Assembly: GCF_030930995.1 (NCBI RefSeq)
Contig: NZ_CP133217.1
Span: 2,470,001-2,534,000 of the forward strand
Direction of reading: 5' to 3'
DNA length: 64,000 bases
Source: Thiothrix subterranea
GTDB taxonomy: Bacteria; Pseudomonadota; Gammaproteobacteria; Thiotrichales; Thiotrichaceae
The position numbers and the translations under genes are program-made. This document shows positions 20,899 to 42,063 of this stretch, in pieces. Positions within the stretch are counted from its first letter, which is position 1. Every line of letters begins with the position of its first letter. The notes under the pieces are model-generated. The model did no database searches. It saw nothing but the letters and a program-made list of their open reading frames with translations, and was not told the origin of the DNA.

Positions 20899-21034
20899 TT
20901 CTTAATCCAGAAATCCTCAGGAATAATCTAAACAACCTAAATATATTTATATGTTGAGGTTGATTATCTACGGATTTTTAGATTTTCCTATTATCCAATC
21001 TCCCCCATCAACTTAACCACCCACTCCTCCCGCT

Positions 21035-22474
21035 TATACGCGCCAACTTAAGCCCCTAACCCCTTGTTTCCTCTTGAAAACAAGATATGGCAACTCCATG
21101 TAGGATACTTTTACCGACCAAAGTGAAAGTTCCCATGAAGTTGCCACCATTATTAGATACCCGTTTTGCCCAATTCCTGCAAGTGTTACCTGCCGATTAT
21201 CACGAACAAGCGTATGCCTTCAAAGCCTTCGCCCGTCCCCGCAAGATCAAAAGCCCGCTGCAATTGCTCCAGTTAGTGCTGGCGTACTGCGGCTTGGACT
21301 TGTCGCTACGCAGTTGCGCCGGGGAGGTTGCCCAGAGGCAGGGCTATCTCAGTGATACAGCCGTAAAAAAAGACTGGAGGCTTGTGTTCCGTGGGTAAAA
21401 TCCCTGCTGGCAGGCGTATTTGGGCTAAGCGAGATTGTCGATAGCGGCAAACTACGTTTCATCGCCATTGATGGCTCGACCGTGCAAGAACCGGCAGCCA
21501 CTGCCACGACGTACCGCCTGCATATCGCCATTGATTTGATCAACCTCAGCCTGCATCAAGTGGAAGTCACCACCGATAAAGAAGGCGAAAACCTCGACCA
21601 TTACACGCTGGCAGCAGGCGATGTGGTGCTGATTGACCGGGGTTATAACCAACCCAAAACGCTTGTCCCTTTTATCGACCGGGGCGGTGATGTGGTATTA
21701 CGCTACAACGCCCATAGCATGAATCTGTATGAGGATGACGAAGGAGATGATACCGGACGCCTAGTCAAAATCGACTGGTACACGCGCTTACGTAAGCTGG
21801 GTAAACGCCCCAGTTGTGTGCCGGTTTGGTTATGTCATGGCAACAAACGCATCCAGGGCTACCTTCACGCGATCCCCTTACCCGAAGAAAAAGCCGCACA
21901 AGCGCGGCGCAAAGCCAAACAACGCGCCAAAGACAAGGGACGCAACCCCAGCACGGAAGCCCTTTGCCTGAGCGAATGGGTACTGATTTTCACGTCATTA
22001 CCGCCTGAAGTCCTGTGTACCACCACCGCATCCGCACTCTACCGTGTCCGCTGGCAGGTTGAATTGGTGATCAAACGTCTCAAAAGTTTGCTGAATGTCG
22101 ATGAGCTACGGGCGCACAAAGGCTCAAAACTGGCTGAACTGTATCTACACGGCAAATTATTGTACGCCGCCGTGCTGGAAAAGATGACGCAAAGTCGCTT
22201 TGCCAATGCCAAACGTAAACTCGATAACCCCCGCCGACTCACCGATTGGCGACTTTGGAAAACCGTCGCGGATGACCTCAACGCGGGCATCAAAGCCTGT
22301 TTCCCTGTTGATGCCCGCTTTGAGGATGACAACATCAAGAGTTTGAGCGAACGCCCCAGAAAGCGGACGTTGCAATGTTTGCCTAGCCCCATTCTTGCTC
22401 TGTTGAACCAATGCCGAGAAATGGCGTTGAGCCGTGTTTAATCAAGGGGATAGGGGCTTAAGTTGGCGCGTATG
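21035..22474 (+). mobile_element. IS231-like (IS4 family) element, copy D, with 11-bp target duplication
   Basis: Its boundaries are set by the intact mfd sequence. CTCCTCCCGCT is present at 21024-21034 and again at 22475-22485 but once in mfd. The element is 1440 bp with ~30-bp terminal inverted repeats (ATACGCGCCAACTTAAGCCC...). An 11-bp duplication and the transposase motif place it near the IS231 group of IS4. This is the best-preserved of the three copies in the window. Confidence 0.94.
21087..22441 (+). CDS. IS231-like transposase, two frames joined at an A7 slippery heptamer
   Basis: Frame one (ATG 21087, or ATG 21135 giving MKLPPLLDTRF) reads to SDTAVKKDWRLVFRG and stops at 21398. 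A minus-one shift at A-AAA-AAA (21365-21371, in exact X-XXY-YYZ phase) instead gives AVKKRLEACVPWVKSLLAGV and continues through FIAIDGST, VVLIDRGYNQ and YRVRWQVELVIKRLK. The last is a perfect Y-(2)-R-(3)-E-(6)-K signature of IS4-family DDE enzymes. The shifted reading restores the family-like SD-x-A-x-x-K-R-L segment, so the full enzyme is the frameshift product. Whether shifting is programmed or a fixed mutation is not known. Confidence 0.85.
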
Positions 22475-22891
22475 CTCCTCCCGCTCCTCCACCGTCGGGA
22501 GTTCGATTTCAAACCGCAACTTATCCTGCCCATCCAGCTTAAACACCCACGGGCGTTTCTGGATCAGGGTAATCACCTTCATCGGGTCAATATTCGGTTT
22601 GTCGTCAAAGATAATTCGCCCGCCCTTGACGTGCATATCCAGCTTGCGGATGCCCAGTTCCTGCGCCAGCAGCTTGACCCGCGTGACGCTGAACAGCGTC
22701 TTGGTCGGTTCTGGCAGCAGCCCGAAGCGGTCGATCATTTCCACCCGCAATTCGTCCAGTGCCGCCTGCGATTCCGCGCTGGCAATGCGTTTGTAGAGGA
22801 TCAGCCGCGCATGGACATCCGGTAAATAATCGTCCGGGATCAGCGCAGGCGCACCCAATTCCACCGTGGTGCGGTTGTTGTGCCAGCGTAA

Positions 22892-22911
22892 GGGCGATTC
22901 ATGAATCGCCC
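22892..22911. repeat. 20-bp perfect palindrome within mfd tail copy 1
   Basis: GGGCGATTCATGAATCGCCC is its own reverse complement, set in AA...CCTAC context. It occupies a position where the other two mfd copies have ordinary coding sequence (KVPELSATS), and it keeps the reading frame (GAIHESPLRWHNN). It resembles the palindrome inside full-length mfd at 40963-41015. Confidence 0.85.
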
Positions 22912-23038
22912 CTACATCACCCGATTTCAACGCCTTCACCGCCCGTTCCAGCAAGTCGTTGTAGAGGTTGTGATCTAGCCCAGCAAACCCGGACACCCCA
23001 AGAAGTGAGTACACTATACTCGACACTTGAGGTGAAAG

Positions 23039-23335
23039 ATGAAACCAAGCAAACCAACAACCAAGCCCTACACACGCCGTTCCGCGAGTTATAAAGAGGA
23101 AGCCCTGAGGTTGGCCGATCGAATCGGTTACGCGGAAGCAGCGCGTCAACTGGGTTTACATGAATCACAACTCTACGGCTGGCGTGCCAAACAAACGCAG
23201 CAGCAAACGGTTAGCAGTCGCGAACAAGAGAAAGCGGCTGAAATCGCCAAACTCAAACGGGAACTGCTGATAGCCCAAGAAGAGGTGGCTATCCTAAAAA
23301 AGGCCAGCGCGTACTTTGCGAGACAGCTCAAGTGA
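23039..23335 (+). CDS. IS3 orfA, HTH/leucine-zipper transposase subunit (copy B)
   Basis: 98 aa. [23 protein letters not shown] then [13 protein letters not shown] coiled coil rich in heptad Leu follows ([25 protein letters not shown]). Near the end the sequence CTA-AAA-AAG contains the canonical A-AAA-AAG slippery heptamer. A minus-one shift there joins orfA to orfB to make the active OrfAB transposase, as in other IS3 members. The stop overlaps the orfB start by 4 bp (GTGA). Confidence 0.92.
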
Positions 23336-24201
23336 AGTACGCCTTTATTCAACAACATAGCCGTGAATTCTGCATTCCCCGCCTGTGCCAAGCATTGGGT
23401 GTTGCCCGCAGCAGTTACTATGAATGGCTGGAGCGACAATCCAACGATCGGCAACGTGAGCAACGGCAAGCATTACTCGATACTCAGGTTGCTACCGCCT
23501 TCCAGTCCAAGAAAGGCTGCTATGGCGCATGGCGTTTATGTAAACTATTGGCAAAGGATGGACTGCATTACAACCGCAAAACCATTGCCAACAGCTTGAA
23601 ACGTCAGGGATTAGTCGCCAAAGCAGCGCGGAAATTCAAGGCAACCACCCATAGCCGCCATTCGTTGCCAGTGTCGCCCAATCTGCTGGAACAGAACTTT
23701 ACAGCGACTGCCCCAAACCAGAAATGGGTCGGTGACATCACTTACTTGTGGACAGACGAAGGCTGGCTATATCTGGCGGTTATCATTGACCTATTCTCCC
23801 GCCAAGTGATTGGTTGGGCAATGGATCAACGCATGACCGCTGATTTGGTTGGTGATGCTCTGCAAATGGCACTTTGGAAACGTAAACATCCCAAGGGCGT
23901 GATTGTCCATTCCGACCGTGGCAGCCAATATTGCTCCCAAGCTTACCAACAACTGATACAACAGCACCAACTGCATGGCAGCATGAGTGCCAAAGGCAAT
24001 TGCTATGACAACGCCTGCGCCGAAAGCTTTTTCCATTCCATGAAAGTAGAATGCATCCACGGTGAACGCTTTGCCACACGGGATGCCATGAAACAAACCG
24101 TTTTCGAGTACATCGAAACCGATTACAACCGTCACCGCTTGCACAGTACCTTGGGCTATCTCAGCCCGCTGGACTTTGAAGCACAATTCCTCACAAGTTG
24201 A
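23332..24201 (+). CDS. IS3 orfB, DDE integrase-type transposase (copy B)
   Basis: 289 aa, GTG start overlapping the orfA stop. The N-terminal HTH_21-like region ([20 protein letters not shown]) is followed by an rve integrase core with all three acids: [19 protein letters not shown] and [14 protein letters not shown]. It ends [19 protein letters not shown], the usual IS3 tail. Intact and presumably functional as OrfAB. It is inserted in the mfd tail, reading opposite to mfd. Confidence 0.94.
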
Positions 24202-25156
24202 GGTGTCCGGGTTTAATGGGCTAGATCAGTTGAAACCGATTTCCTGAATTTGCCCGCTTTGCCCTTCGCCGAGCAATTCGCCCGCGCCGCGAATCTCCAG
24301 ATCGTGCGTCGCCAGCGTGAAGCCGACCCCCAGTTCTTCCAGCGATTCAATCGCTTCCAGCCGCTTGACCGCATCCGGCGTGAGTGCGGATTTCGGCGGC
24401 GCAATCAAATAGGCATAAGCGCGGTGGTGCGAACGCCCGACCCGCCCACGCAACTGGTGCAACTGCGCCAGCCCCAGCTTGTCGGCACGGTTGATCAAAA
24501 TCGTATTGGCGGTCGGCACGTCGATGCCGCTTTCAATGATGGTGGTGGCAATCAGAATCTGGAAACGCTGGTGGTAAAAATCGCTCATGATATTTTCCAA
24601 CTCATTCGCCCGCATCTGCCCGTGGGCATGGCGCACCGTCACACCGGGCAACATCGCGCTCAGTTCCTGCTCCACCTTGTCGATGGTTTTGACCTCATTG
24701 TGCAGCACGTACACCTGCCCGCCGCGTGACAATTCCCGCGCACACGCTTCCTGAATGATGGTCTTGTTCCACTCGCACACGAAAGTTTTGATCGCGTGGC
24801 GTTGCGTCGGCGGGGTGGCAATGATCGACAAATCGCGCAAGCCAGACAGCGACATATTCAGCGTGCGTGGAATCGGCGTGGCGGTCATGGTCAGCATATC
24901 GACATTGGCACGCAGCTTTTTCATCTGCTCCTTGTCGCGCACCCCGAAGCGGTGTTCTTCGTCGATAATCACCAGCCCCAGTTGCTTGAAATGCACATCG
25001 TCCTGCAACAGCTTGTGCGTACCGATCACAATGTCGATTTTGCCGGAGGCGAGTGCCTCCAGCGCCTTGCTGGTTTCTTTGCCTCCATGTCTTTTTGTTT
25101 TTATGTGGGTAGTGGGGTAAGCTGTGAAATATCGAAATAATTGACGGATACAAGTC

Positions 25157-25408
25157 ATGACCACATTTGCAGTTGAGTTACCAACGGAAATCTTTTCCGC
25201 GTTGAAGCGTTCGCCACCGGAATTCCTCAAACAAATGCGTCTTGCTGCGGCTATCCATTGGTATGCGGGGGGTAAGGTGTCGCAGGAAAAAGCCGCCTTG
25301 ATCGCAGGGCTTGACCGCGTGGATTTTCTGGCGGCATTGGCGGCGGAACAGGTGGAAGTGTTCGCCGTGGATATGGATAGCCTGAAGCGGGAACTGGAGC
25401 ATGGTTAA
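25157..25408 (+). CDS. UPF0175-family antitoxin
   Basis: 83 aa. FAVELPTEIFSAL...FLKQMRLAAAIHWYAGGKVSQEKAALIAGLDRVDFLAALA is the UPF0175 pattern, with an HTH-like segment (SQEKAALIAGLDRVDFL). These proteins pair with PIN-like DUF3368 genes. Its stop codon overlaps the next gene by 8 bp, so the pair is co-translated. It is the first gene after the 5' break of mfd tail copy 1, starting 73 bp from the breakpoint. Confidence 0.85.
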   Translation: MTTFAVELPTEIFSALKRSPPEFLKQMRLAAAIHWYAGGKVSQEKAALIAGLDRVDFLAALAAEQVEVFAVDMDSLKRELEHG

Positions 25409-25886
25409 ACAGGCGATAGTTAACAGTTCGCCGATCATTTTTCTGTCCAAAGCGGGTTTGATGAATTTGCTGAAACTGGCGGGCGATGAGGTTTTCGTGC
25501 CGGATGCAGTGGTGCAGGAAATCAACCAGCGCGGGGCAAACGATGTTTCCGTGCGGGCAATTGCTGCTGCTGAATGGCTGCAAGTCGTGGATGTGCCGAC
25601 ACCTGACCCGCTGATACAGGCATGGGATTTAGGCAAAGGCGAAACGGCGGTTTTGACTCATGCGTTGCATTATGCGGGGATGTTTGCGGTGATTGATGAT
25701 GGTTTAGGCAGAAAATGTGCTGAAACCTTCGAGATTCCGTTGTATGGCACGTTGGGCTTGGTGTTGAAGGCGAAGCGGTTGGGGATGATTGCAGAAGCCC
25801 GTCCTGTACTGCATCAGCTACGCAAATATGGTATGTACCTTAAAGATGCTACATTGGAACAGGCTCTTGCGCTGATTGGGGAATAA
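25401..25886 (+). CDS. DUF3368 PIN-like toxin
   Basis: 161 aa. IVNSSPIIFLSKAGLMNLL (first polar/acidic site of the DUF3368 PIN fold, here Asn-Ser-Ser), VVQEIN (Glu), DLGKGETAVLTHAL (Glu) and FAVIDDGLGRKCAE (Asp-Asp) follow the family order. Likely a ribonuclease toxin neutralised by the overlapping UPF0175 protein. GC content is near the host level, unlike the PARIS-like genes that follow. Confidence 0.83.
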   Translation: MVKQAIVNSSPIIFLSKAGLMNLLKLAGDEVFVPDAVVQEINQRGANDVSVRAIAAAEWLQVVDVPTPDPLIQAWDLGKGETAVLTHALHYAGMFAVIDDGLGRKCAETFEIPLYGTLGLVLKAKRLGMIAEARPVLHQLRKYGMYLKDATLEQALALIGE

Positions 25887-26100: not shown

Positions 26101-27363
26101 ATGTTTAAAATTAAGCATATAAAGATTATGGGATTTTGGGGGAAGCACATTCTTGATGTGGCTTTTTATAATGATGTAAATGTTATTATTGGAAAGAATG
26201 GCACAGGAAAAACAACATTCATGAGTATACTTCATGCTGTTTTGACTGTCGATGTGGAATGGCTATATGATTTTGAATTTGAATTTGTTGAGATTAAACT
26301 CGTTCTTGACAAGAAGATTAAAACTATAAAAGTAAAGAAGTCAATTCCAGATGACTATAAGTTTCCAATTGTTGAGTATTATGTTTCTCGAAAAAACTTT
26401 AAACTACGAGTTATTGGAACAGATGATGCTGTTCCGCTGCATTTTAGAAGGCGTATTGTTGAGGAGTCTGAAGAAATAAGAAAAGAACTTGGAGGTCTAG
26501 TTAATATTACTACTTTGTCAGTTTATAGAATAAAAAAAGATTATGAATATGATAGGCGAGAAAGAGCTGAAAGAAGAAATATTTCTCCTATTGATCTAAT
26601 TCTTCAAGATTTATTACAAAGACTTACTACATATCAGTTAGAATTATCTGATCAGGCTAGGCAGGTATCTTCAAAGCTCCAAAAGGAAGTGTTGTCATCA
26701 CTTTTATATATTGAAGAGCGTGAAAATAAACAAGGAATTAAGCTCGATTTTGATAAAAGAGAAGAAAAGAAAAAATTAATTACTGCATATAACCAACTTG
26801 GTGTTCTAGATTCAAAGATTCGTGGTTATATTGATCAGCACGTGGAAAAAGTATCTGAAAGCATTGAAAAAATGAAATTGGCAATTAAGTCTCCTGATGC
26901 TGAAAAAATGGTGGCTCTTGATTTTGGTCCATTAGAAAAAATTAGGTTGACAAATGATGTTGTTAAAATGTCATTAAAAGCTGAAGAAGAGGAAAAATCA
27001 ATATTTAGACAGCAAAGTTCATTTATAAAGATACTGCATGAATTTATTCTTGATAAGAAATTTAGCTTTAAAAATGGATTGCTTAAAGTGGAGAAAAATG
27101 GGGATGTTCCAATTCCTAAGTTATCTTCTGGTGAAAAGCAGTTAATTATTTTGTTTGCTGAAGCATTGCTCCAACGTGAACAATCTTTTATTTTTGTTGC
27201 TGATGAACCTGAGCTTTCTTTGCATATATCTTGGCAAAGAGAGATTCTTCCAGCAATTCGAACTCTTAATCCAAATGCTCAACTAATTGTTGCAACACAC
27301 TCTCCCGAAATAGCTGGAAAATACGTGGGTAAGATTCTTGATATGGAGGATGTTTTGCAATGA
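26101..27363 (+). CDS. AAA ATPase, AriA-like subunit of a PARIS-type system
   Basis: 420 aa, AT-rich. SMC/ABC-type ATPase: IKHIKIMGFWGKHILDV, Walker A VIIGKNGTGKTTFM (about 30-43), a central charged helical region (residues ~120-290), signature LSSGEKQLIILFAEALLQ and Walker B FIFVADEPELSLH (about residue 366) with IVATHSPEI as the switch histidine. The DUF4435 gene overlaps its stop by 4 bp (ATGA). AAA plus DUF4435 in this order is the PARIS layout, in which the ATPase forms the sensing complex that holds AriB. Role here is by analogy. Confidence 0.84.
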   Translation: MFKIKHIKIMGFWGKHILDVAFYNDVNVIIGKNGTGKTTFMSILHAVLTVDVEWLYDFEFEFVEIKLVLDKKIKTIKVKKSIPDDYKFPIVEYYVSRKNFKLRVIGTDDAVPLHFRRRIVEESEEIRKELGGLVNITTLSVYRIKKDYEYDRRERAERRNISPIDLILQDLLQRLTTYQLELSDQARQVSSKLQKEVLSSLLYIEERENKQGIKLDFDKREEKKKLITAYNQLGVLDSKIRGYIDQHVEKVSESIEKMKLAIKSPDAEKMVALDFGPLEKIRLTNDVVKMSLKAEEEEKSIFRQQSSFIKILHEFILDKKFSFKNGLLKVEKNGDVPIPKLSSGEKQLIILFAEALLQREQSFIFVADEPELSLHISWQREILPAIRTLNPNAQLIVATHSPEIAGKYVGKILDMEDVLQ

Positions 27364-28193
27364 GTAATATTGAGTACTCTTCAGATGCTATTAATGTTCT
27401 AAATAAATTTCATCGTTGCTCAATTCTTGTTTATGTTGAGGGTGAAGATGATGTTATGTTTTGGGATATTATTTTTCGATTTTTCGAGTTTGAAAATTAT
27501 AAAATTGAACCCAAAGACGGATGTGAGGAACTTGATAAGTATGCAAATAGAGTAATTAATGAAGACTTAAATATAATCATTGCTAGAGATGCCGACTATA
27601 GAGTTATTACTGACCGTCATTTGTCGCACAGAAATATAGTTACAACATATGGATACTCAATAGAAAATACTCTGTATTTTCCAAAATCACTTATTGAGGT
27701 GACGCAAATTTGGGTTAAAGATAGTGACTTTAATGGTATTGAGCTTTATAGATGGCTTGATAATTTAACTGTAAAATTAAGATCACTTATCGTGTTGGAT
27801 ATTGCTAATTTTGCATTTGATTTATATGAAAATATTTTAGGAGATAATTGTACAAAATATATGTCATCACAACACTCTATAGATGTAAATGATTCTAGAA
27901 TAAAACGCGCATATGATGAAAAAATCATGAATTTCACCCCTGAACAAATTGAACGCATTGAATCATTGATTGAACGTAATGATAGGGAATTACATGAGAT
28001 AATTAGAGGGCATTTTTTGCAGTCGGCAATATTAAAATTTATTTCAAAGGCAATGTCTGCCAAAGGAAGAAAAGGGAAAATATCTTATGATGCTTTGTAT
28101 GCACATGCAATTCAACAGTTTAAATATATATTTAATGAGCATCACCCTCATTATGAATATTATAAACAAGAGATTGCCGAGTTAAGAAAATAA
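27360..28193 (+). CDS. DUF4435 Toprim-like nuclease, AriB-like subunit
   Basis: 277 aa, AT-rich. The Toprim-type core is SILVYVEGEDDVMFW with Glu27, then IIARDADYRV with Asp77/Asp79, then TYGYSIENTLYFP, the DUF4435 hallmark. In characterised PARIS the matching glutamate is needed for toxicity, and the enzyme cuts host tRNA. The start overlaps the ATPase stop (ATGA). It is followed by a 98-bp spacer and then mfd tail copy 2. Size matches AriB of known systems. Confidence 0.84.
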   Translation: MSNIEYSSDAINVLNKFHRCSILVYVEGEDDVMFWDIIFRFFEFENYKIEPKDGCEELDKYANRVINEDLNIIIARDADYRVITDRHLSHRNIVTTYGYSIENTLYFPKSLIEVTQIWVKDSDFNGIELYRWLDNLTVKLRSLIVLDIANFAFDLYENILGDNCTKYMSSQHSIDVNDSRIKRAYDEKIMNFTPEQIERIESLIERNDRELHEIIRGHFLQSAILKFISKAMSAKGRKGKISYDALYAHAIQQFKYIFNEHHPHYEYYKQEIAELRK

Positions 28194-28291: not shown

Positions 28292-29689
28292 TTAACTGCA
28301 AATCTCTCCCATCAACTTAACCACCCACTCCTCCCGCTCCTCCACCGTCGGGAGTTCGATTTCAAACCGCAACTTATCCTGTCCATCCAGCTTAAACACC
28401 CACGGGCGTTTCTGGATCAGGGTAATCACCTTCATCGGGTCAATATTCGGCTTGTCGTCAAAGATAATCCGCCCGCCCTTGATGTGCATATCCAGCTTGC
28501 GGATGCCCAGTTCCTGCGCCAGCAGCTTGACCCGCGTGACGCTGAACAGTGTCTTGGTCGGCTCTGGCAGCAGCCCGAAGCGGTCGATCATTTCCACCCG
28601 CAATTCGTCCAGTGCTGCCTGCGATTCCGCGCTGGCAATGCGTTTGTAGAGGATCAGCCGCGCATGGACATCCGGCAAATAATCATCCGGGATCAGCGCA
28701 GGCGCACCCAATTCCACCGTGGTACGGCGGCTGGTGGCGCTCAATTCCGGCACTTTGCCCGACTTCAACGCCTTCACCGCGCGTTCCAGCAAGTCGTTGT
28801 AGAGGTTGAAACCGATTTCCTGAATCTGCCCGCTTTGCCCTTCGCCGAGCAATTCGCCCGCGCCGCGAATCTCCAGATCGTGCGTCGCCAGCGTGAAACC
28901 GACCCCCAATTCTTCCAGCGATTCAATCGCCTCCAGCCGTTTGACCGCATCCGGCGTAAGCGCAGATTTCGGCGGCGCAATCAAATAGGCGTAAGCGCGG
29001 TGGTGCGAACGCCCGACCCGCCCGCGCAACTGGTGCAACTGCGCCAGCCCCAGCTTGTCGGCACGGTTGATCAGAATCGTGTTGGCGGTCGGCACGTCGA
29101 TGCCGCTTTCAATGATGGTGGTGGCAATCAGAATCTGGAAACGCTGGTGGTAAAAGTCGCTCATGATGCTTTCCAACTCATTCGCCCGCATCTGCCCGTG
29201 AGCATGGCGCACCGTCACACCGGGTAACATCGCGCTCAGTTCCGCCTCCACATTGGCAATGGTTTTGACCTCATTGTGCAGCACGTACACCTGCCCGCCG
29301 CGTGACAATTCGCGCGCACACGCTTCCTGAATGATGGTCTTGTTCCACTCGCACACGAAAGTCTTGATCGCGTGGCGTTGCGTCGGCGGGGTGGCAATGA
29401 TCGACAAATCGCGCAAACCCGACAGCGACATATTCAGCGTGCGCGGAATCGGCGTGGCGGTCATGGTCAACATATCGACATTGGCACGCAGCTTTTTCAT
29501 CTGCTCCTTGTCGCGCACCCCGAAGCGGTGTTCCTCGTCGATGATCACCAGCCCCAGTTGCTTGAAATGCACATCGTCCTGCAACAGCTTGTGCGTACCG
29601 ATCACGATGTCAATCTTACCGGAGGCGAGTGCCTCCAGTGCCTTGCTGGTTTCCTTGCCGGTCTTGAAGCGCGACAGCGATTTAATCAC
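28292..29689 (-). pseudogene. Truncated mfd tail copy 2
   Basis: 465 codons, uninterrupted, from KSLSRFKTGKETSKALEALA to VKLMGEICS and TAA. The first codons (GTG ATT AAA at 29689) overlap the end of the aminotransferase gene. Similarity to mfd starts at about 29682 and stops at the last codons, where full mfd has GEIGG-TGA. It lacks the UvrB-like, RID and Walker A parts, so it cannot be a working Mfd, though the frame is open and could be translated. Very close to the same part of full-length mfd by eye. Confidence 0.92.
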
Positions 29690-32105: not shown

Positions 32106-32873
32106 TTATTGATGTTTTACTAAATTAAAGTTTAGTGGACACTTGGTGGATGGAGAGTCATTATCATCTGGTATCATATACTGAGGCCATTCAAGATCGC
32201 CATCTTGATAATGTCCCAGATAAGGACTCCGAGAAATCAGATCATATTTGTCAATATTATTTCTAATTCTTTCCCTTATTTTATGGCCTTTTTTATTATT
32301 TCCCGCAAACTTATCAAATCGTTCTCGTGGGTTAATTACAAATACTAGTGTGTCGCATAAGTTCCTACTATTTCTATTTTTATGATTTGGGTGACTTACA
32401 TTGATGAATATTTGAACTCCTGAAAAGCACATCGTCCAGAATTCTTGATTTGGATTTTTAGGTAAACAACCATTCCATGCTATTTTGTCATGGTCTATAA
32501 GATATTGAAGCGAATCAAAAAATATTTTTTCGTAATGATGTGTGCTAAATATAAACTTAACAGGCTCAAATAAGACAATTAATGGTTCGATATTATTTAT
32601 ATTTTCATCTGATTGTTGAGTCTCTTCCAGAAAGGAAGATAGCTCATTTGCAAAACTTTTGAAGTCATAAGTGTGCTGATCTTTACACCAATTTATAGTG
32701 AGAAATCTAAAGTTTAGTAGGGAAAATACTCTTCTTGCGAAAATGCAAGGGAAATTATTTTCATGATTTAATGACGGATTAAGTTTTTTTGATATTTGAT
32801 CAATTAATGGATATGCCCATTGAAGAGTTTTAGGTAACTTTATACTTGGGAAATCTTGCTGACTAATTAACAT
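32106..32873 (-). CDS. YqcI/YcgG-family protein, GntA-like putative heme-dependent N-hydroxylase
   Basis: 255 aa, AT-rich. NFPCIFARRVFSLLNFRF near the start and FWTMCFSGVQIFINVSHPNHKNRNSRNL then LVFVINPRERFD are the YqcI/YcgG (PF08892) pattern. A member of this family, GntA, is the heme enzyme that N-hydroxylates an arginine-derived guanidine in guanitoxin synthesis. The conserved His of VSHPNH is a possible heme ligand. Its start overlaps the rubredoxin-reductase gene by 7 bp, pointing to direct electron supply. Substrate unknown. Confidence 0.7.
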   Translation of the reverse strand: MLISQQDFPSIKLPKTLQWAYPLIDQISKKLNPSLNHENNFPCIFARRVFSLLNFRFLTINWCKDQHTYDFKSFANELSSFLEETQQSDENINNIEPLIVLFEPVKFIFSTHHYEKIFFDSLQYLIDHDKIAWNGCLPKNPNQEFWTMCFSGVQIFINVSHPNHKNRNSRNLCDTLVFVINPRERFDKFAGNNKKGHKIRERIRNNIDKYDLISRSPYLGHYQDGDLEWPQYMIPDDNDSPSTKCPLNFNLVKHQ

Positions 32874-34511: not shown

Positions 34512-35492
34512 TTAAGATAATAACCCTTGGCGCTCAAAAGACTCTTTACCTTCTATCATGTCAAATACTCCTACTTCTGATGCGAGTTGGATTAATTCGG
34601 AATAGTCGATTCTATTTAAGTTTATTTCTGACTCTGCACGGCAATCACCAATCACTTCATTCGTATATTTAAAGTTTAATTGGTTAAGTATTGTCTCCCA
34701 TACAATAAATTCTTGACTTGCAAACCAATGAACAGGCAATGGTAATACTTGGCAAAAGAAAGTTTTTTCTTTGTAACTTAGGTGATGAAATATTTCTTTT
34801 GTGAGATTGCGAAAAATACTGCTATGAGCCAACTCATCTTTTCGATGATAATCTGTTGTAATTCTATTAACTGGTTGAACTTCATCAGCATTTGCTAATA
34901 AACTTAAGTAGTCACTAATGAAAACTTCTGACACAACACAGGCTGCTAGTCTCACTAGTTTTTTCTGCCAATCATGAGAGTATCTGCTAACTTCTTTCTC
35001 AATATTATTTACCAAGTCAAAACTTGGAAGTTTTAATTCAAGAAGTCCTCTCTGTTTTCTGCAAGTATAACAAGTATTTAATACCATCAATATATGATAT
35101 GCTTCATCAACTAATGTTTCTGCTGCTAACCATCTTATTATATGGTTATTTGTTCCGGGTAATTCAGAATAGATGAGTTGATTGCAAACGGGAGATATTA
35201 TTTTTGCTTCTATATCAATGGTTTTTTCATTATATGCAATCCACCCAGATGAGAGAATAAGCGTTCTTGTCTCGTCATCAATTTCTAGGTAACGTGGGTG
35301 TTCGTGAAAGGGTAAAAGTGAATCAATAAAGTCATCGTGATCAGGATTGTAAATTAAATCAACTTCAATTTCATCATTCTTGACTTGGGCGCGACTTGAC
35401 CATGATTTCCCCAGTTTGTCAAGAATTAAGATGCAATTATTATCCGATTGTTCAGTGTGGTTTTCTGGCAATTCCATGCTTTGACTAATCAT
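34512..35492 (-). CDS. AurF-like diiron N-oxygenase
   Basis: 326 aa. The diiron ligand pattern of AurF (p-aminobenzoate N-oxygenase, PF11583) is visible in order: AAETLVDEAYHILM (E-x-x-x-H), CVVSEVFISDYLS (Glu) and TDYHRKDELAHSSIF (H-x-x-x-E-x-x-H). The family oxidises amines to hydroxylamines, nitroso or nitro groups. AT-rich, transcribed toward the rubredoxin reductase. GGAG precedes the start at good spacing. It is presumably the first enzyme gene of the N-oxygenase operon. Substrate unknown; no NRPS or PKS is nearby, so a free amino acid or simple amine is likely. Confidence 0.8.
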   Translation of the reverse strand: MISQSMELPENHTEQSDNNCILILDKLGKSWSSRAQVKNDEIEVDLIYNPDHDDFIDSLLPFHEHPRYLEIDDETRTLILSSGWIAYNEKTIDIEAKIISPVCNQLIYSELPGTNNHIIRWLAAETLVDEAYHILMVLNTCYTCRKQRGLLELKLPSFDLVNNIEKEVSRYSHDWQKKLVRLAACVVSEVFISDYLSLLANADEVQPVNRITTDYHRKDELAHSSIFRNLTKEIFHHLSYKEKTFFCQVLPLPVHWFASQEFIVWETILNQLNFKYTNEVIGDCRAESEINLNRIDYSELIQLASEVGVFDMIEGKESFERQGLLS

Positions 35493-35831: not shown

Positions 35832-36530
35832 TTATTGTTTTGGGCCATCTATACGGGAATCCCAATTTTCAATTTCACCACATTGCAGACGGTTTTCTAT
35901 TGTTCGCTTCCAAGACTTTACTAATGGCAAATGTAGCATTTGTTCAAGAGAGGGGTAATGCAACGGATTCTTGTAGAAAAACTCCATCAAACGGGCTAAT
36001 GTCCACTCTGGATAGGGACGATTTACCAGATCAATCGTATCACCTGCTTTGAGTATCCCTGCCTGTAACACGCGGCAATACCAACCCGTGCGTAAACTCG
36101 ACTGTAGTCGCCGTGCCATATCAGGTACGCCGAATCTGTCATTGAGCTTCCAGCAAGGTTGGCGCGCTTGCGAAACTTCCATTAATACACTGCCTACACA
36201 AAGCTGATCACCTAAACAAATAGTGGATTCAGTTATGCCCTTTGCCCTAATGTTTTCACCGAAAGCACCCGCCTTAATGAGTGCAGGAAGCATACCTAAT
36301 TCTTCAATCCACTTAGGGTAATGTTCAAGTGCGTAAAAGTGTACGGCCTTATCTGCACCTCCATGTACTCGCAAGTCACCTTGTTCATCACCTTCAAGTC
36401 CATTAGCATTTACTGAAACGGTTGAATAAACAGCTTGCTTATCAATCGCACTGTAAGTACCCGGTCGTGTGTAAGGTTTTGCTTTTCCCGTTAGCACTGA
36501 CTCAACAATACCCAATGCGTTTTGTTTCAC
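35832..36530 (-). CDS. MOSC-domain protein, YiiM-like
   Basis: 232 aa. GDEQGDLRVHGGADKAVHFYALEHYPKW is the MOSC signature, with GAFGENIRAKG and the conserved cysteine in QARQPCWKLNDRFG that coordinates molybdenum in this family. C-terminal RTGWYCRVLQAG and LARLMEFFY match YiiM. E. coli YiiM and YcbX are Moco-dependent and protect cells from N-hydroxylated base analogues by reducing them. Next to N-oxygenases this could serve as self-protection, which is inference. Its start overlaps the stop of the amidotransferase gene by 4 bp. Confidence 0.85.
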   Translation of the reverse strand: MKQNALGIVESVLTGKAKPYTRPGTYSAIDKQAVYSTVSVNANGLEGDEQGDLRVHGGADKAVHFYALEHYPKWIEELGMLPALIKAGAFGENIRAKGITESTICLGDQLCVGSVLMEVSQARQPCWKLNDRFGVPDMARRLQSSLRTGWYCRVLQAGILKAGDTIDLVNRPYPEWTLARLMEFFYKNPLHYPSLEQMLHLPLVKSWKRTIENRLQCGEIENWDSRIDGPKQ

Positions 36531-37231
36531 AACAACTCCAATCTATCCAGCCAACGCCCAAACACAGTTTCAGCGGCGTGTTGCAAGGTGGCTTTAAACT
36601 GATTGGATTGTGTGCGGATAGTGTTGGGATCAATACCAGCAAGGCTTAATTCAAGTGCATGGCCTATCAGCCATTGTTCGAGGCGTTTGGTATCAACCTC
36701 AAGGTGGAATTGTAAGCCAAGTGCATAATCGCCCAAAGCAAATGCTTGATGGGGACAAAGGTTAGTTGTTGCCAAACTTTCAGTACCTGCTGGCATATCA
36801 AATTGATCACCATGCCAATGCAAAACGTGTACATCGGGTGTGAGTTCAGCAAGGACTGACACTTTGCCCGCTTCGGTTAGTTGCAAAGGAGCAAAGCCGA
36901 TTTCTTTGTGACCCATACTAGCCACTGTAGCGCCTACTGCCCGTGCCATCAGTTGCGCCCCTAGACAAATACCGAGTATCGGTTTCTGTGCAGCTAGGCG
37001 GTGCTGGATGAGTTCCAGCTCCTGCTGCAAAAAGGGGTATGCCTTTTCATCATAAGCACCAATGGGCGCACCCAGCACCACCAGCAAATCAATGTTATCG
37101 GGATCAAGTGTCCATAATTCATGCACACCCATGTCGTAGTAGTAGATTTTGTAACCTTTACGAATCAATAGAGGCTCAAGTACACCCAAATCTTCAAAAG
37201 GTACGTGACGTAATGCAATAAGGGTTTTCAT
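36527..37231 (-). CDS. Class I glutamine amidotransferase-like protein
   Basis: 234 aa. Catalytic triad visible: nucleophile Cys in PILGICLGAQLMARAVG, then His and Glu in ALGLQFHLEVD. It resembles stand-alone GMP-synthase-type GATases (YfeJ-like), which hydrolyse gamma-glutamyl amides. ATG at 37231. It is divergent from the MocR gene with only 28 bp between starts, so a shared control region is likely. Whether it serves the N-oxygenase pathway is unknown. Confidence 0.85.
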   Translation of the reverse strand: MKTLIALRHVPFEDLGVLEPLLIRKGYKIYYYDMGVHELWTLDPDNIDLLVVLGAPIGAYDEKAYPFLQQELELIQHRLAAQKPILGICLGAQLMARAVGATVASMGHKEIGFAPLQLTEAGKVSVLAELTPDVHVLHWHGDQFDMPAGTESLATTNLCPHQAFALGDYALGLQFHLEVDTKRLEQWLIGHALELSLAGIDPNTIRTQSNQFKATLQHAAETVFGRWLDRLELL

Positions 37232-37253: not shown

Positions 37254-37259
37254 TAATGA

Positions 37260-38558
37260 ATGAATACATATTACATCAAGGCATCCAACGCTGTCGAGAT
37301 TATTGTCAGTTTGGAAGAACAAATTCGTTTAGGGGTGCTAAAGCCCGGTGAATCGCTGCCTGCCATCCGTGAGCTTGCGCAGCAGATTGGTGTTAGCCCG
37401 AATACAGTCGCTACAGCGTATGCCAAGTTACGGGATGCAGGTTTGGTTGTTTCTGACGGGCGACGGGGTACGACGGTAGCTTTACCACCGAGCCACGGCG
37501 ATATGCTGACGGAACTACCCGCAGGGTTGATTGATTTAGCCAGTGGTAATGTCGATGGTAATCTTCTGCCGCCACTCAATGCAGCGTGGTTGGCAAAGCA
37601 AGGGTCACTGACAGGTTATGATGCCAGCGGTGATGCTTCCTGTTTGCTGGATGTTGCTCGTCGTTGGTTGATAAAAGAACAGCTTCCATTTGCGGAGATG
37701 GGTGTATTTTCTGGAACATTGGAAGCTATTGCCATTGCACTACGATTGCGCGTAACACCAGGGGCGCGTGTATGGGTGGAAGACCCATGCTGGCCACCCT
37801 TGTTAGCATTATTGGCAAGTTTGCGTATCAAGCCTGTACCGTTGCCAATGGATGCACACGGCTGTCTTGTACCTGAACCTGACAAGCAGGTGATGGCAAT
37901 GATTTTGACACTTCGCGCCCATAATCCGACAGGGGCAACCTTGAGCGAGGAGCGGTTGAATGCAATGGCAGCCCTAATGCAACAACAACCCCATACGTTA
38001 TTTATTTTGGATGGCTATTGGGGGCCGATTGCAGATCAGCCTTTACCAAAGCTGAATTTGCCAGCCAACTGGCTTTATATTCTCTCCGTGAGCAAATTTT
38101 TAGGGCCTGATTTGCGGGTTGCTGTCGTGAGTGGTTCGGCGGCTATTGTAGCGGATATGAGGCGGCAACAATCGTTGGGGCCACGGTGGGTTAGCCTGCT
38201 GTTACAAAAGTTGGCGGCTCATTTATGGTTGGAAAGCGAGCAAAATAAAGTCCTAAGTTATGCCCAACAAAGCTATGCTGCGCGTCGGGCGGCACTGGTT
38301 CATAGCTTGGCTGATTTGGGGTTAGATATTCCCATTACAGGGGAAGGATTGCATGTTTGGCTACCTGTAGCCGATGAAGCATCGACGTTGCAGGCATTAG
38401 CAGCGAAGGGCTGGGGAGTGCAGGCCGGTCATCCCTTTCGGCTTCAATCGCCGCCTGCTATCCGTATTAGCCTTGGTAATTTGACGGTGGAAGAGGCTAG
38501 TGTGTTAGCTAGGGATATTGTCTCCAGTTTGCATCGCCCCAAACGTTCATGGATATAA
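37260..38558 (+). CDS. MocR-type (GntR/aminotransferase) transcriptional regulator
   Basis: 432 aa. N-terminal GntR winged helix: LEEQIRLGVLKPGESLPAIRELAQQIGVSPNTVATAYAKLRDAGLV. The C-terminal type I aminotransferase-like domain has the PLP lysine in LSVSKFLGPDLR and RAHNPTGAT with the substrate-binding Asn. MocR proteins sense PLP-linked amino acids and control nearby genes. It is divergent from the GATase-MOSC group, so it probably controls that operon and perhaps the N-oxygenase genes. Its stop lies two bases from the end of mfd (convergent), right at the module boundary. Confidence 0.9.
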   Translation: MNTYYIKASNAVEIIVSLEEQIRLGVLKPGESLPAIRELAQQIGVSPNTVATAYAKLRDAGLVVSDGRRGTTVALPPSHGDMLTELPAGLIDLASGNVDGNLLPPLNAAWLAKQGSLTGYDASGDASCLLDVARRWLIKEQLPFAEMGVFSGTLEAIAIALRLRVTPGARVWVEDPCWPPLLALLASLRIKPVPLPMDAHGCLVPEPDKQVMAMILTLRAHNPTGATLSEERLNAMAALMQQQPHTLFILDGYWGPIADQPLPKLNLPANWLYILSVSKFLGPDLRVAVVSGSAAIVADMRRQQSLGPRWVSLLLQKLAAHLWLESEQNKVLSYAQQSYAARRAALVHSLADLGLDIPITGEGLHVWLPVADEASTLQALAAKGWGVQAGHPFRLQSPPAIRISLGNLTVEEASVLARDIVSSLHRPKRSWI

Positions 38559-38559
38559 A

Positions 38560-41500
38560 TCACCCCCCAATCTCCCCCATCAACTTAACCACCCACTCCT
38601 CCCGCTCCTCCACAGTCGGGAGTTCAATCTCAAACCGCAATTTATCCTGCCCATCCAGCTTAAACACCCACGGGCGTTTCTGGATCAGGGTAATCACCTT
38701 CATCGGGTCAATATTTGGTTTGTCGTCAAAGATAATCCGCCCGCCCTTGACGTGCATATCCAGCTTGCGGATGCCCAGTTCCTGCGCCAGCAACTTGACA
38801 CGCGTGACGCTGAACAGCGTCTTGGTTGGCTCTGGCAGCAGCCCGAAGCGGTCGATCATTTCCACCCGCAATTCATCCAGTGCTGCCTGCGATTCCGCGC
38901 TGGCAATGCGTTTGTAGAGAATCAGCCGCGCATGGACATCCGGCAAATAAGCGTCCGGGATCAGCGCAGGCGCACCCAGTTCCACCGTGGTGCGGCGGCT
39001 GGTGGCGCTCAATTCCGGCACTTTGCCCGACTTCAACGCCTTCACCGCGCGTTCCAGCAAGTCGTTGTAGAGGTTGAAACCGATTTCCTGAATCTGCCCG
39101 CTTTGCCCTTCGCCGAGCAACTCGCCCGCGCCGCGAATCTCCAGATCGTGCGTCGCCAGCGTGAAACCGACCCCCAGTTCTTCCAGCGATTCAATCGCTT
39201 CCAGCCGCTTGACCGCATCCGGCGTGAGCGCGGATTTCGGCGGCGCAATCAAATAAGCGTAAGCGCGGTGGTGCGAACGCCCGACCCGCCCGCGCAACTG
39301 GTGCAACTGCGCCAGCCCCAGCTTGTCGGCACGGTTGATCAGAATCGTGTTGGCGGTCGGCACGTCGATGCCGCTTTCAATGATGGTGGTGGCAATCAGA
39401 ATCTGGAAACGCTGGTGGTAAAAGTCGCTCATGATGCTTTCCAACTCATTCGCCCGCATCTGCCCGTGAGCATGGCGCACCGTCACACCGGGTAACATCG
39501 CGCTCAGTTCCGCCTCCACATTGGCAATGGTTTTGACCTCATTGTGCAGCACGTACACCTGCCCGCCGCGTGACAATTCGCGCGCACACGCTTCCTGAAT
39601 GATGGTCTTGTTCCACTCGCACACGAAAGTCTTGATCGCGTGGCGTTGCGTCGGCGGGGTGGCAATGATCGACAAATCGCGCAAGCCCGACAGCGACATA
39701 TTCAGGGTGCGCGGAATCGGCGTGGCAGTCATGGTCAGCATATCGACATTGGCACGCAGCTTTTTCATCTGCTCCTTGTCGCGCACCCCGAAGCGGTGTT
39801 CCTCGTCGATAATCACCAGCCCCAGTTGCTTGAAATGCACATCGTCCTGCAACAGCTTGTGCGTGCCGATCACGATGTCGATCTTGCCGGACGCGAGCGC
39901 CGCCAGTGCCGTATTGGTTTCCTTGCCCGTCTTGAAGCGCGACAACGATTCGATATTGAATGGCCAGTCGGCAAAACGGTCGCGGAAATTGTTCAAATGC
40001 TGCTGCGTCAGCAAGGTCGTCGGCGCAATCATTGCCACCTGCTTGCCTGCATTCGCCGCCACGAATGCCGCCCGCATCGCTACTTCGGTCTTGCCGAAAC
40101 CCACGTCGCCGCACACCACCCGATCCATCGGCTGTGGCGCACGCATGTCCTTGATGACGTTTTCAATCGCCAGCGCCTGATCCGGCGTTTCTTCAAACGG
40201 GAACGCGCCCGCAAACAGGCGGTAATCGTTGTCGTCAAACGGGAAGCTATGCCCCTGCTGCGCGGCGCGGCGGGCGTGGATGTCGAGCAATTCCGCCGCC
40301 ACATCCCGCGCCTTTTCCGCTGCTTTTTGGCGTGCTTTGTCCCACTGCTCATTGCCGAGGCGGTGCAGCGGCGCGTGTTCCGGGTCAGCCCCGGTGTAAC
40401 GGCTGACCAGATGCAGCGCGGCAACGGGCACGTACAATTTGTCGTGGTTGGCGTATTCGATCAGCAAATATTCCGCCGTCACTCCGCCTGCCGTGACTGT
40501 TTCCAGCCCCAGATAACGCCCAACCCCGTGTTCCTCATGAACGACAGGTGCGCCTTCGTTGAGGTCGGTCAGGTTACGAATAATCGCATCGGCATCGCGG
40601 GTGGCTTTGCGGCGACGGCGTTGCTGCTGGATTTGCACCCCATGCAGCAGGTTTTCGGGAATGACCGCAATCTTCGCATCCGGCAGCCAGAAACCGTTTT
40701 CCAGCGGCGCGACTGTGACCGCCATTTCGGCTTTGCTGTTGAGGAAATCCTGCCAGGTTTCCAGCGTTTTGACCGCAATGCCGTTGTCTTTCAGCAGGGT
40801 GAGGAAGGCTTCGCGCCGCCCGGCGGATTCAGCGGTGAATAGCACGCGCCCTTTCAGGTCTTTGAGGAAGTTGAACAGCAGGAACAGGGGCTGTTCTTGG
40901 CGGGCGTGGATGAGGAGCGAGGGCAGGGCGGCGATGGGGTAATTAATGGTGTTGTCGGAAGAAGGGCGACCACCGGTCGCCCCTACGGGGTGTAGGGGCG
41001 ACCGGTGGTCGCCCTCTTTTCCCTTCTCAATTTCTTTAAACCGCTGCACCTCAATCCGAGGATAATCCCCCACCCAGCTTTGCAGCATCGCCGCTGTCAG
41101 AAACAACTTCTCCGGCGCAAGCAACGGTCTTTCCACATCATGCCGCCGCTGCTCATACCGATACTCTACCGTTTCCCAAAACGTCTTAACCGCCGCATCC
41201 ACGCCCTCAGCGAGTACCAGCAATGTTTTCTTCGGCAAGTAATCAAACAGCGTCGCCGTATGTTCAAAGAACAGCGGCAAGTAATACTCAATCCCCGCTG
41301 GCGGCTTGCCCTGACTCACGCCTTCGTAAATGCGGCTACGGGTCAAATCCCCCTCAACTTGCGCCCGATAATTTTGGCGAAAAGTACGAATCCCCGCTTC
41401 ATCCAGCGGAAATTCCCGCGCAGGCAGCAGTTCAATGCTGTTGACCACCTCTTCAGTACGCTGCGTTTCCGGGTTGAAGGTGCGGATCGAGTCGATTTCC

Positions 41501-42063
41501 TCGTCGAACAAATCAATCCGATACGGCGTATGGCTGCCCATCGGGAACAAATCGACCAGCGAACCACGGGTAGCATATTCGCCATGCGCCATCACCTGAC
41601 TGACATTGCGGTAGCCTGCTTCTTCCAGTTGCTTGCGCAGTTTGTCGATATTGAGCGGCGAACCCTTGCGTACCACGAAGGTATGTCCGTGCACGTAACT
41701 AGTGGGCGCAAGGCGGTGCAATAGCGTGGTGGCGGGCACGATCAGGATGCCGCGCTTGAAGTTTTGCAGCGTCGCCAGCGTTTTCAGGCGTTCGGAAATA
41801 ATGTCTTCGTGCGGCGAAAATACGTCGTAGGGCAGGGTTTCCCAATCGGGGAAAATGTGGCGCGGGATTTCCGGCGCGAAAAATTGCAACGCAGACTCCA
41901 TCTGGTAGGCGGTATGTACATCCGGCACTGCCAGCAGCAACAAGCCATCAAAGCCTTGGGCGGACTGGGCAATCAGCCAGTCGAGTGATGCTCCGTATAA
42001 CTGTCCCCAGCGGATGTGACCGTTGGGGTTTGCGGGGAATTGGGGCTTGAGCAATGCAGGCAT
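38560..42063 (-). CDS. mfd: Transcription-repair coupling factor Mfd, full length
   Basis: 1167 aa. Removes stalled RNA polymerase and recruits UvrA. The UvrB-like N-terminus (LYDVFSPHEDIISERL) is followed by the RNA-polymerase-interacting domain (GAPVVHEEHGVGRYLGLE), Walker A VVCGDVGFGKTEVAMRAAF, the DEEH box IIDEEHRFGVRD, motif VI region QLRGRVGRSHHRAYAYL and the C-terminal D7 domain. About 20 extra residues near position 360 (GDHRSPLHPVGATGGRPS) are encoded by a palindromic repeat. Two 3'-terminal copies lie downstream at 20991-25083 and 28292-29689. Confidence 0.97.
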   Translation of the reverse strand: MPALLKPQFPANPNGHIRWGQLYGASLDWLIAQSAQGFDGLLLLAVPDVHTAYQMESALQFFAPEIPRHIFPDWETLPYDVFSPHEDIISERLKTLATLQNFKRGILIVPATTLLHRLAPTSYVHGHTFVVRKGSPLNIDKLRKQLEEAGYRNVSQVMAHGEYATRGSLVDLFPMGSHTPYRIDLFDEEIDSIRTFNPETQRTEEVVNSIELLPAREFPLDEAGIRTFRQNYRAQVEGDLTRSRIYEGVSQGKPPAGIEYYLPLFFEHTATLFDYLPKKTLLVLAEGVDAAVKTFWETVEYRYEQRRHDVERPLLAPEKLFLTAAMLQSWVGDYPRIEVQRFKEIEKGKEGDHRSPLHPVGATGGRPSSDNTINYPIAALPSLLIHARQEQPLFLLFNFLKDLKGRVLFTAESAGRREAFLTLLKDNGIAVKTLETWQDFLNSKAEMAVTVAPLENGFWLPDAKIAVIPENLLHGVQIQQQRRRRKATRDADAIIRNLTDLNEGAPVVHEEHGVGRYLGLETVTAGGVTAEYLLIEYANHDKLYVPVAALHLVSRYTGADPEHAPLHRLGNEQWDKARQKAAEKARDVAAELLDIHARRAAQQGHSFPFDDNDYRLFAGAFPFEETPDQALAIENVIKDMRAPQPMDRVVCGDVGFGKTEVAMRAAFVAANAGKQVAMIAPTTLLTQQHLNNFRDRFADWPFNIESLSRFKTGKETNTALAALASGKIDIVIGTHKLLQDDVHFKQLGLVIIDEEHRFGVRDKEQMKKLRANVDMLTMTATPIPRTLNMSLSGLRDLSIIATPPTQRHAIKTFVCEWNKTIIQEACARELSRGGQVYVLHNEVKTIANVEAELSAMLPGVTVRHAHGQMRANELESIMSDFYHQRFQILIATTIIESGIDVPTANTILINRADKLGLAQLHQLRGRVGRSHHRAYAYLIAPPKSALTPDAVKRLEAIESLEELGVGFTLATHDLEIRGAGELLGEGQSGQIQEIGFNLYNDLLERAVKALKSGKVPELSATSRRTTVELGAPALIPDAYLPDVHARLILYKRIASAESQAALDELRVEMIDRFGLLPEPTKTLFSVTRVKLLAQELGIRKLDMHVKGGRIIFDDKPNIDPMKVITLIQKRPWVFKLDGQDKLRFEIELPTVEEREEWVVKLMGEIGG
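40963..41015. repeat. Palindromic repeat inserted in frame within mfd
   Basis: Perfect 24-bp inverted repeat, arms 40963-40986 and 40992-41015, loop GGGGT. Each arm contains CGACCACCGGTCG-type inner symmetry. The outer edge GTAGGGGCGA is shared in style with the palindrome at 22892. It lies inside the mfd reading frame and encodes RSPLHPVGATGGRPS-type residues without a stop. Confidence 0.92.

Follow-up and report, generated by a model that had tools for sequence, protein, structure and literature searches.

Here we describe an array in Thiothrix subterranea in which blocks of cargo genes are stacked behind the intact housekeeping gene mfd and separated by truncated copies (tails) of its 3' part. 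The window analyzed is the whole 64,000-nucleotide (nt) stretch presented above, positions 2470001-2534000 of contig 2 in a 4.4 Mb assembly of two contigs (genome G000 below). The best reading of this arrangement, and in our judgment a probable one, is repeated homologous (Campbell-like) insertion of DNA carrying cargo together with an mfd 3' arm, with the older cargo pushed downstream. Comparison across the genus shows recurrent arrays, horizontal movement of cargo, mosaic tails, and stop codons that are displaced yet intact.

Truncated mfd copies in the T. subterranea genome

Self-BLAST of the window, combined with annotation of the cargo by Pfam and PADLOC, yielded the same order that had been proposed from the sequence alone, namely, mfd, an N-oxygenase operon, an mfd tail, a toxin-antitoxin module with PARIS, a second mfd tail, and a TIR-STAND gene (Table 1). 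All mfd copies in the window have the orientation of the full gene, in agreement with the same proposal. Two extra tails of about 1.38 kb had been expected. Tail A is continuous and matches mfd positions 38569-39950 without gaps over 1382 nt at 97.0% identity, whereas tail B is split into three pieces (24229-25083, 855 nt, 95.7% identity; 22475-22970, 496 nt, 90.7%; 20995-21034, 40 nt, 100%) by two insertion sequences that the sequence-only reading did not mention. A 1.38-kb repeat at 97% identity is far beyond chance. The 3' ends of both tails lie a few codons short of the mfd stop, and their 5' ends are 23 bp apart (mfd nt 2114 and 2137). Of the three modules initially distinguished, two were said to carry defence genes; PARIS and TIR-STAND were indeed identified, but no tail follows TIR-STAND within the window, and this gene is treated here as older flank.

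Tails recur across the genus

We searched 57 genomes (16 of Thiothrix and 41 others) for extra C-terminal copies of the mfd product with a protein search at E <= 1e-75, which would miss fragments shorter than about 150 amino acids (aa). A full-length, open mfd is present in all 16 Thiothrix genomes, and extra C-terminal copies were detected in seven of these. Mapping at the DNA level resolved 11 tails, three in G001, two each in G000 and G004, and one each in G003, G006, G013 and G015, with a length of 1.2-1.46 kb where uneroded. A search for partial mfd genes in related genomes had been suggested as a check, and the alternative envisaged at the time, tails limited to one genome and flanked by random breakpoints, does not fit these seven genomes or the clustering of the 5' breakpoints (see below). 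In G004, the tails are located about 420 kb away from the full mfd, and stretches of 99-100% identity, some with transposase genes, occur at both places; a rearrangement likely separated these tails from mfd. In G009, a 110-nt remnant, 81% identical to the end of the genome's own mfd, lies directly behind a Phd-PIN toxin-antitoxin block. It was the only decayed tail found when the downstream regions were searched with a DNA profile (E 1e-18); a profile match in G011, behind the same Phd-PIN block, is suggestive only (E 1.5).

Three control genes from the same window, those for RNase R, a GGDEF/EAL protein and DsbD, have no adjacent extra 3' copy in the 16 genomes searched for each, and their other matches are interrupted genes or distant paralogues. 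Separately, the GGDEF/EAL gene (window positions 61330-63312) is split by inserts of about 1-1.5 kb at different points in G006, G008 and G013, and is represented by fragments at contig ends in G002 and G014.

Outside the genus, no separate extra mfd copy was found in any of the 37 genomes with an mfd match (41 searched), a weak negative because most of these genomes are drafts. Second matches in these genomes are either alignments at 42% identity elsewhere in the genome, which we take to be RecG-like, or a single gene split into two alignments. A survey of mfd across the class, covering 184 genomes (partly overlapping the set of 57), gave a match in 178. With G000 set aside, exactly one match was present in 167 of 177 genomes and two or three in the other 10; in the seven of these with a listed best match, it starts at residue 370-524, as expected for one gene split in two alignments; these counts, made among the matches listed with at most three candidates scored per genome, are likewise a weak negative on tails. 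Within Thiothrix, tails were found in seven of the nine genomes with at most four contigs and in none of the seven with at least eight; draft assemblies may hide tails.

The N-oxygenase block is shared between species

The N-oxygenase block (5.8-kb query) is present in five of the 16 genomes, G000, G001, G003, G006 and G013. Every match at 95% identity or above is located at mfd; the four other matches are 69-77% identical and cover at most 1.1 kb. The joint between block and tail, at about mfd nt 2114, is identical in G000, G001, G003 and G006, so this cassette did not spread by new chance joints. G013 shares with the other four genomes the 6 nt that immediately precede the tail, but about 163 bp of other sequence lie in between. 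Behind the block, the genomes differ: PARIS follows in G000, two C39/CAAX blocks in G001, and Mokosh-like genes in G006.

Pairwise identity among the five genomes is 75.8-91.1% over mfd nt 1-900, 86.8-100% over the 3' 1380 nt of mfd, 90.9-100% for the cargo genes, and 86.0-96.8% for the tails. In most comparisons, the N-oxygenase cargo is more alike between species than both flanking arms. The exception is the pair G000-G003, for which the 3' part of mfd is 100% identical: the two sequences agree at 80-91% across mfd nt 1-1500, and starting at nt 1501 they are 100% identical as far as about 2.5 kb into the cargo. We read this switch as the mark left by a recent exchange, one end of which fell within mfd. 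Furthermore, the flank behind tail 1 in G001 is found directly behind the full mfd in G004 (93.6% identity over 1570 nt, through the joint), which is the arrangement expected for the time preceding arrival of the N-oxygenase block. In the stretches read (about 15 kb or more, except for G007 and G008, where only 1.3 kb and 4.7 kb, respectively, are readable downstream of mfd), the 16 genomes have no right flank in common; on the left, mfd itself is conserved.

The content of the blocks also varies. G001 carries two tandem cassettes encoding a C39-like peptidase and a CAAX protease (loci L038/L039), with ends 92-93% alike and middles largely unrelated; the two CAAX proteins are 43% identical. 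Because these two blocks share their ends but largely not their middles, the blocks themselves recombine. Just behind the last tail of the same genome (L039, 5182-8136) is a gene for a 984-aa Schlafen/AlbA_2 and ATPase-like protein without a PADLOC match. In G015 (L057, 4516-7801), the cargo between mfd and the tail consists of three genes without a PADLOC match, only one of which has a Pfam match, of the alpha/beta hydrolase type; this block is possibly an unknown defence system. In G004 (L043, about 4590-4750), a long run of 4-bp repeats, possibly phase-variable, is located between mfd and the first cargo gene.

Tails resemble displaced ends of functional mfd genes

Most tails differ from the full gene in the way in which functional mfd genes of different species differ from each other. 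Compared with the full mfd of the same genome, codon differences are 36 synonymous to 5 nonsynonymous in G000 tail A, 50 to 7 in the G003 tail, and 42 to 8 in G001 tail 3; the functional genes of G000 and G001 differ at 55 synonymous and 10 nonsynonymous codons. Less clean are the G013 tail (28 to 17), G000 tail B (46 to 16, with one stop) and G001 tail 1 (42 to 12, with one stop). Among 11 ends, those of ten tails and the G009 remnant, 10 have an in-frame stop 0-3 codons past the last shared codon; the eleventh, the G009 remnant, has a stop after 13 codons, and G004 tail 1, which is cut short and lacks this end, was not counted. For nine independent ends in random sequence, the chance of such near stops is about 1.5e-7. 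Near in-frame stops are expected if, as these sequences suggest, the tails originally formed the ends of working mfd genes.

Several tails carry traces of recombination. By eye, the first 55 nt or so of the G013 tail are of the mfd type of other species and the remainder is of its own mfd type. The G006 tail has two differences from the full mfd in 1380 aligned nt, and the cargo genes of this genome are 0.3-2.5% off those of G000. Runs of identity between tail and mfd reach 428 nt in G000 tail A, 392 nt in G004 tail 1 and 392 nt in G013, and none of 5000 shuffles produced runs as long. G001 tail 2 and G004 tail 1 have the same 85-nt deletion despite different cargo joints.

Features of the locus

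Table 1. Positions of mfd, its tails, the cargo blocks and the older flank in the window
Feature	Coordinates	Strand	Basis and remarks
Full-length mfd, 1167 aa (anchor)	38560-42063	minus	ORF (open reading frame) list; full copies 97-98% identical in G001, G003
Cargo 1: MocR-like GntR/aminotransferase regulator	37260-38558	plus	Pfam GntR + Aminotran_1_2
Cargo 1: class I glutamine amidotransferase	36527-37231	minus	Pfam GATase
Cargo 1: MOSC domain protein (YiiM-like)	35832-36530	minus	Pfam MOSC, YiiM_3-alpha
Cargo 1: AurF-type N-oxygenase	34512-35492	minus	Pfam AurF 1.4e-45
Cargo 1: rubredoxin fused to FAD/NAD reductase	32867-34234	minus	Pfam Rubredoxin + Pyr_redox_2
Cargo 1: YqcI/YcgG family protein	32106-32873	minus	Pfam YqcI_YcgG
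Cargo 1: amino acid permease	30860-32092	minus	Pfam AA_permease_2
Cargo 1: class III aminotransferase	29686-30858	minus	Pfam Aminotran_3; stop codon 3 nt from tail joint
mfd tail A (mfd nt 2114-3495)	28301-29682	minus	open frame, in-frame stop 2 codons past shared end
Cargo 2: AriB (PARIS)	27360-28193	plus	Pfam DUF4435; PADLOC AriB 1.7e-19
Cargo 2: AriA (PARIS) ATPase	26101-27363	plus	Pfam AAA_15; PADLOC AriA 1.6e-36; PtuA models also match
Cargo 2: DUF3368 protein, presumed PIN-like toxin	25401-25886	plus	Pfam DUF3368
Cargo 2: UPF0175 protein, presumed antitoxin	25157-25408	plus	Pfam UPF0175
mfd tail B, 5' piece (mfd nt 2137-2991)	24229-25083	minus	self-BLAST
Insertion sequence inside tail B, presumably IS3-like from its gene layout	22971-24228	plus	second copy at 13742-14757 and 12031-12283
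mfd tail B, middle piece (mfd nt 2988-3468)	22475-22970	minus	self-BLAST
Second insertion sequence inside tail B	21036-22474	plus	97% copy at 15241-16677
mfd tail B, 3' piece (mfd nt 3458-3497)	20995-21034	minus	self-BLAST
Older flank: TIR-STAND protein	18364-20898	plus	Pfam TIR_2, nSTAND_NTPase4; PADLOC PDC-S60 6e-81, ThsB
Older flank: small protein, PADLOC candidate PDC-M50A	17883-18314	plus	PADLOC 1.7e-44; no Pfam match

By coordinates, the MocR-like regulator gene converges on mfd, with the two stop codons 1 nt apart. Beyond the older flank, at 12031-16677, insertion sequences are nested: the second copy of the 22971-24228 element is split by other transposase-like ORFs and adjoins the second copy of the 21036-22474 element.

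The full mfd contains, at 40963-41015, an in-frame palindromic insert (GGGCGACC...GGTCGCCC, a self-inverted match of 53 nt) that is absent from G004 and G011 and unaligned in several other congeners. A second palindrome, GGGCGATTCATGAATCGCCC, is found in tail B at about 22890-22915; an insert occupies the corresponding position in G001 tail 1. We take these elements to resemble the in-frame palindromic elements of other bacteria. In Thiothrix fructosivorans (L060), mfd is located on a 446-kb contig titled plasmid pTfr446.

Proposed mechanism

In the scenario that we favor, the 3' end of mfd is a recurrent landing site in Thiothrix. A cassette would consist of a foreign gene block with a copied 3' part of mfd behind it and would enter the cell, probably, by natural transformation. 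Homologous recombination, presumably of the RecA type, between the mfd part of the cassette and the resident mfd would then integrate it, either by a single crossover if the substrate is a circle or from linear DNA with mfd on both sides; linear DNA with mfd at both ends leaves the same product as a circle. This product would comprise an intact mfd, the new cargo, a truncated tail and the former flank of mfd, the tail being either the end of a formerly functional mfd that has been displaced or a hybrid of donor and resident sequence. The landing site would be rebuilt each time, such that the next cassette would arrive at the same place and older cargo would move downstream, and the tails could subsequently act as homology arms for exchange, conversion and loss. 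Serial insertion that keeps mfd whole had already been suggested from the sequence alone; the recurrence of tails, the cassette shared among genomes with different residents, the crossover traces and the displaced flank are all consistent with it, and the circular intermediates that formed part of the suggestion were not found in the plasmid, phage and viral collections searched.

With regard to uptake, ComEC and DprA genes are present in all 16 Thiothrix genomes, which makes natural transformation possible in this genus. A search for uptake signals among over-represented 9- and 10-mers gave nothing usable, the top words coming from simple repeats, mfd copies and one repeated stretch.

Several observations weigh against serial homologous insertion. 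Nine of the 16 genomes are tail-less, including the closed G005 and with only the remnant in G009, yet their cargo varies at the same point, and seven of the 11 tails have no identical run beyond those in the shuffles (P above 0.05). PARIS and TIR-STAND DNA was found across the genus only in G000, bar a short weak match in one other genome each; because neither has a second genome, movement is shown for the N-oxygenase block only. The ComEC and DprA families also match in 10 and 11, respectively, of 14 control genomes, E. coli included. The plasmid, phage and viral collections yielded no free circle, plasmid or phage bearing a tail of the Thiothrix type: nothing exceeded 80% identity in the plasmid and phage collections (best matches 61.6% and 62.1%), and viral contigs gave one match at 57%, these matches being distant mfd genes as judged from the best 20 of 161 and the best 20 of 51 and from the identity bands of all. 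The model further gives no account of the first joining of cargo to tail or of the narrow placement of both joints. Across the genus, 27 mfd ends are followed by 16-17 unrelated downstream groups, and all are joined no more than about 10 nt after the I1165 codon (the 16 groups have no detectable similarity to each other; in one of them, two ends are linked only through a single 29-nt match, and a count of 17 is equally fair). Plain homologous recombination does not account for how such 3' joints first form. On the other side, the BLAST ends define six distinct 5' breakpoints, at about mfd nt 2034, 2114, 2137, 2155, 2182 and 2221, all within 187 nt of a gene of 3.5 kb. Such a range has P of about 3e-6 for breakpoints spread uniformly along the whole gene and 3e-4 for breakpoints restricted to nt 2034 and beyond.

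The joints, whose sharpness the sequence-only reading did not mention, have additional distinctive properties. Beyond the shared residues MGEI, only the 2-3 end codons of mfd vary, and the last 0-3 codons and the stop derive from the downstream side of the joint; G013 reads on for 11 more codons. In this genome (L055), the G run at the 3' end of the gene is one G longer, which abolishes the usual stop, and the frame extends into cargo DNA. In two cassette types (N-oxygenase and C39), 1-7 nt separate the stop of the final cargo gene from the tail. The last 60 nt of mfd in G000 contain 33 G, a count reached by fewer than 1 in 10,000 60-mers sampled from the window. The sharpness of the joints possibly reflects descent from one ancestral tail with a trimmed 5' end, breaks in the very G-rich end of the gene, selection favoring the shortest joint that is viable, or a recombinase that escaped notice.

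Going further, and more tentatively, mfd could be a dedicated integrase-free platform. Its last third would serve as the homology arm shared by mobile cassettes of defence, toxin-antitoxin and metabolic genes, which would form a pool circulating among species and be inserted newest first, with both the gene and the site rebuilt at each insertion, and the sharp, G-rich 3' joint and the clustered 5' breakpoints would mark a specific step of breakage and joining that makes new cassettes. We advance this broader proposal as a speculation that is somewhat more likely to fail than to hold.

Alternative explanations

Homology-facilitated illegitimate recombination is the alternative that fares best, albeit one that we consider unlikely as an account of the whole array. 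Each member would be made separately, by linear DNA that pairs through the mfd end and is joined by chance at its other end, with the resident genes kept. The joints between cargo and tail do differ by cassette type and share at most a few letters, such as the GGCAA that is seen by eye at the G000 tail B joint in comparison with a tail-less copy of the antitoxin region in G003, and the same mechanism is proposed for the immunity arrays of the type VI secretion system (T6SS) of Vibrio cholerae (PMC5361080). Joining by chance is hard to reconcile, however, with breakpoints confined to 187 nt and with a single N-oxygenase joint in four genomes, also present in G013 apart from the insert of about 163 bp. 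Illegitimate events may instead give birth to new cassettes that later spread by homologous recombination.

An improbable alternative is a site-specific recombinase that targets the 3' end of mfd after the I1165 codon, with elements carrying a long restoring copy of mfd and the enzyme acting in trans or lost. The convergence of so many unrelated flanks on the same 10 nt or so of mfd and the origin of the final codons and stop from the downstream side are what such an enzyme would produce. In G000, however, none of 14 scanned ORFs (out of 16 of at least 70 aa between mfd and position 17883, transposases and tails excluded; the rest of the window was scanned in part) belongs to an integrase family, nor does any in the scanned part of the ORFs of G001, G003, G004, G006 and G015, where only transposases were found, in G004. 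Those 14 ORFs of G000 likewise include no tyrosine or serine recombinase. The only tRNA gene found is that of tRNA-Leu at 53131, 11 kb upstream of mfd, and the initial remark that neither an integrase nor a tRNA site is seen holds for the ORFs covered here. A search of the masked downstream regions for short core repeats at block borders, which would supply a second site, returned only the G009 remnant and matches with 7 mismatches in 24. Moreover, a core-only site needs no kilobase-long tail, the 5' breakpoints vary between cassettes, and the crossover traces lie inside mfd and the tails.

Far less probable is tandem duplication within a single genome, insertion sequences having carried the cargo in between the copies. 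Such elements are plentiful nearby, at 12031-16677 and inside tail B, but none is located at the G000 cargo joints, the differences between tails and mfd are synonymous and of the interspecies type, and the N-oxygenase cargo occurs in five species at a higher identity than mfd nt 1-900. An assembly artefact of the repeated region, a concern raised at the outset, is hardly credible: the distribution of tails by contig number indicates that assembly quality affects detection, but this bias works toward missing tails in drafts, and seven separate assemblies of 1-4 contigs contain different arrays of diverged copies with unique cargo in between, which makes a single-genome error unlikely.

Comparison with known systems

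Other loci accumulate or exchange cargo at a fixed position. In integron arrays, the newest cargo lies beside a self-renewing site and older cargo is moved away; unlike integrons, the mfd locus uses long homology arms rather than short sites, and no integrase was found among the scanned proteins. The minimal mobile elements of Neisseria are strain-variable cargo at one place that is exchanged via conserved flanks, without an integrase. At mfd, by contrast, both cassette arms derive from one gene, and new cargo is added in tandem rather than replacing the old; minimal mobile elements are also defined by two conserved flanking genes, whereas the mfd locus has no common right flank in the stretches read. 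The repeats between the mfd cargo blocks are the mfd tails themselves.

Three further published systems are comparable. In pneumococcus, duplications arise upon transformation with DNA that is repeated in part (Johnston et al. 2013, PMC3784515), but these merodiploids are large tandem duplications of about 100-900 kb rather than cargo at the end of a gene. For Rhs arrays, homologous recombination was proposed with circular intermediates that contain part of the gene and are formed by recombination between repeated core fragments, the old tip being shunted downstream (Jackson et al. 2009, PMC2935791). As in these displacement arrays, the intact mfd is followed by fragments in the same orientation that end at the same position of the gene and are each joined to different DNA; in contrast, the variable part of Rhs is the tip of the protein itself, whereas mfd stays full length and its variable part consists of independent genes. 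The T6SS effector-immunity arrays of V. cholerae have no known integrase and are likened by the authors to integrons (Kirchberger et al. 2017, PMC5361080). They share with the mfd locus successive additions at one point, the pushing back of older genes, and mosaics produced by frequent homologous recombination; there, however, the previous effector gives way to another and it is mainly the immunity genes that persist, whereas here the older cargo is kept behind a kilobase-long tail.

It is an open question how islands of defence genes form when no integrase is evident. If the proposed mechanism is correct, a copied piece of a core gene suffices for mobility between species and for stacking, with the host gene unharmed. 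A simple search rule follows, namely, to screen the region downstream of an intact core gene for truncated copies of its 3' part; because draft assemblies may hide tails, the number of such arrays elsewhere may be underestimated. In the literature searched, no title or abstract opening was found that describes mfd as a cassette site, and the main text of a Thiothrix comparative genome paper (PMC8570282) contains no mentions of mfd. Part of the mechanism has already been proposed for Rhs; with a housekeeping gene as the anchor, it would no longer be limited to toxin tips, and the circular-intermediate model would become testable. By analogy, the mfd array can be viewed as a displacement array like those of the Rhs and T6SS immunity loci, but with a housekeeping gene as the anchor and independent defence and metabolic genes as the cargo.

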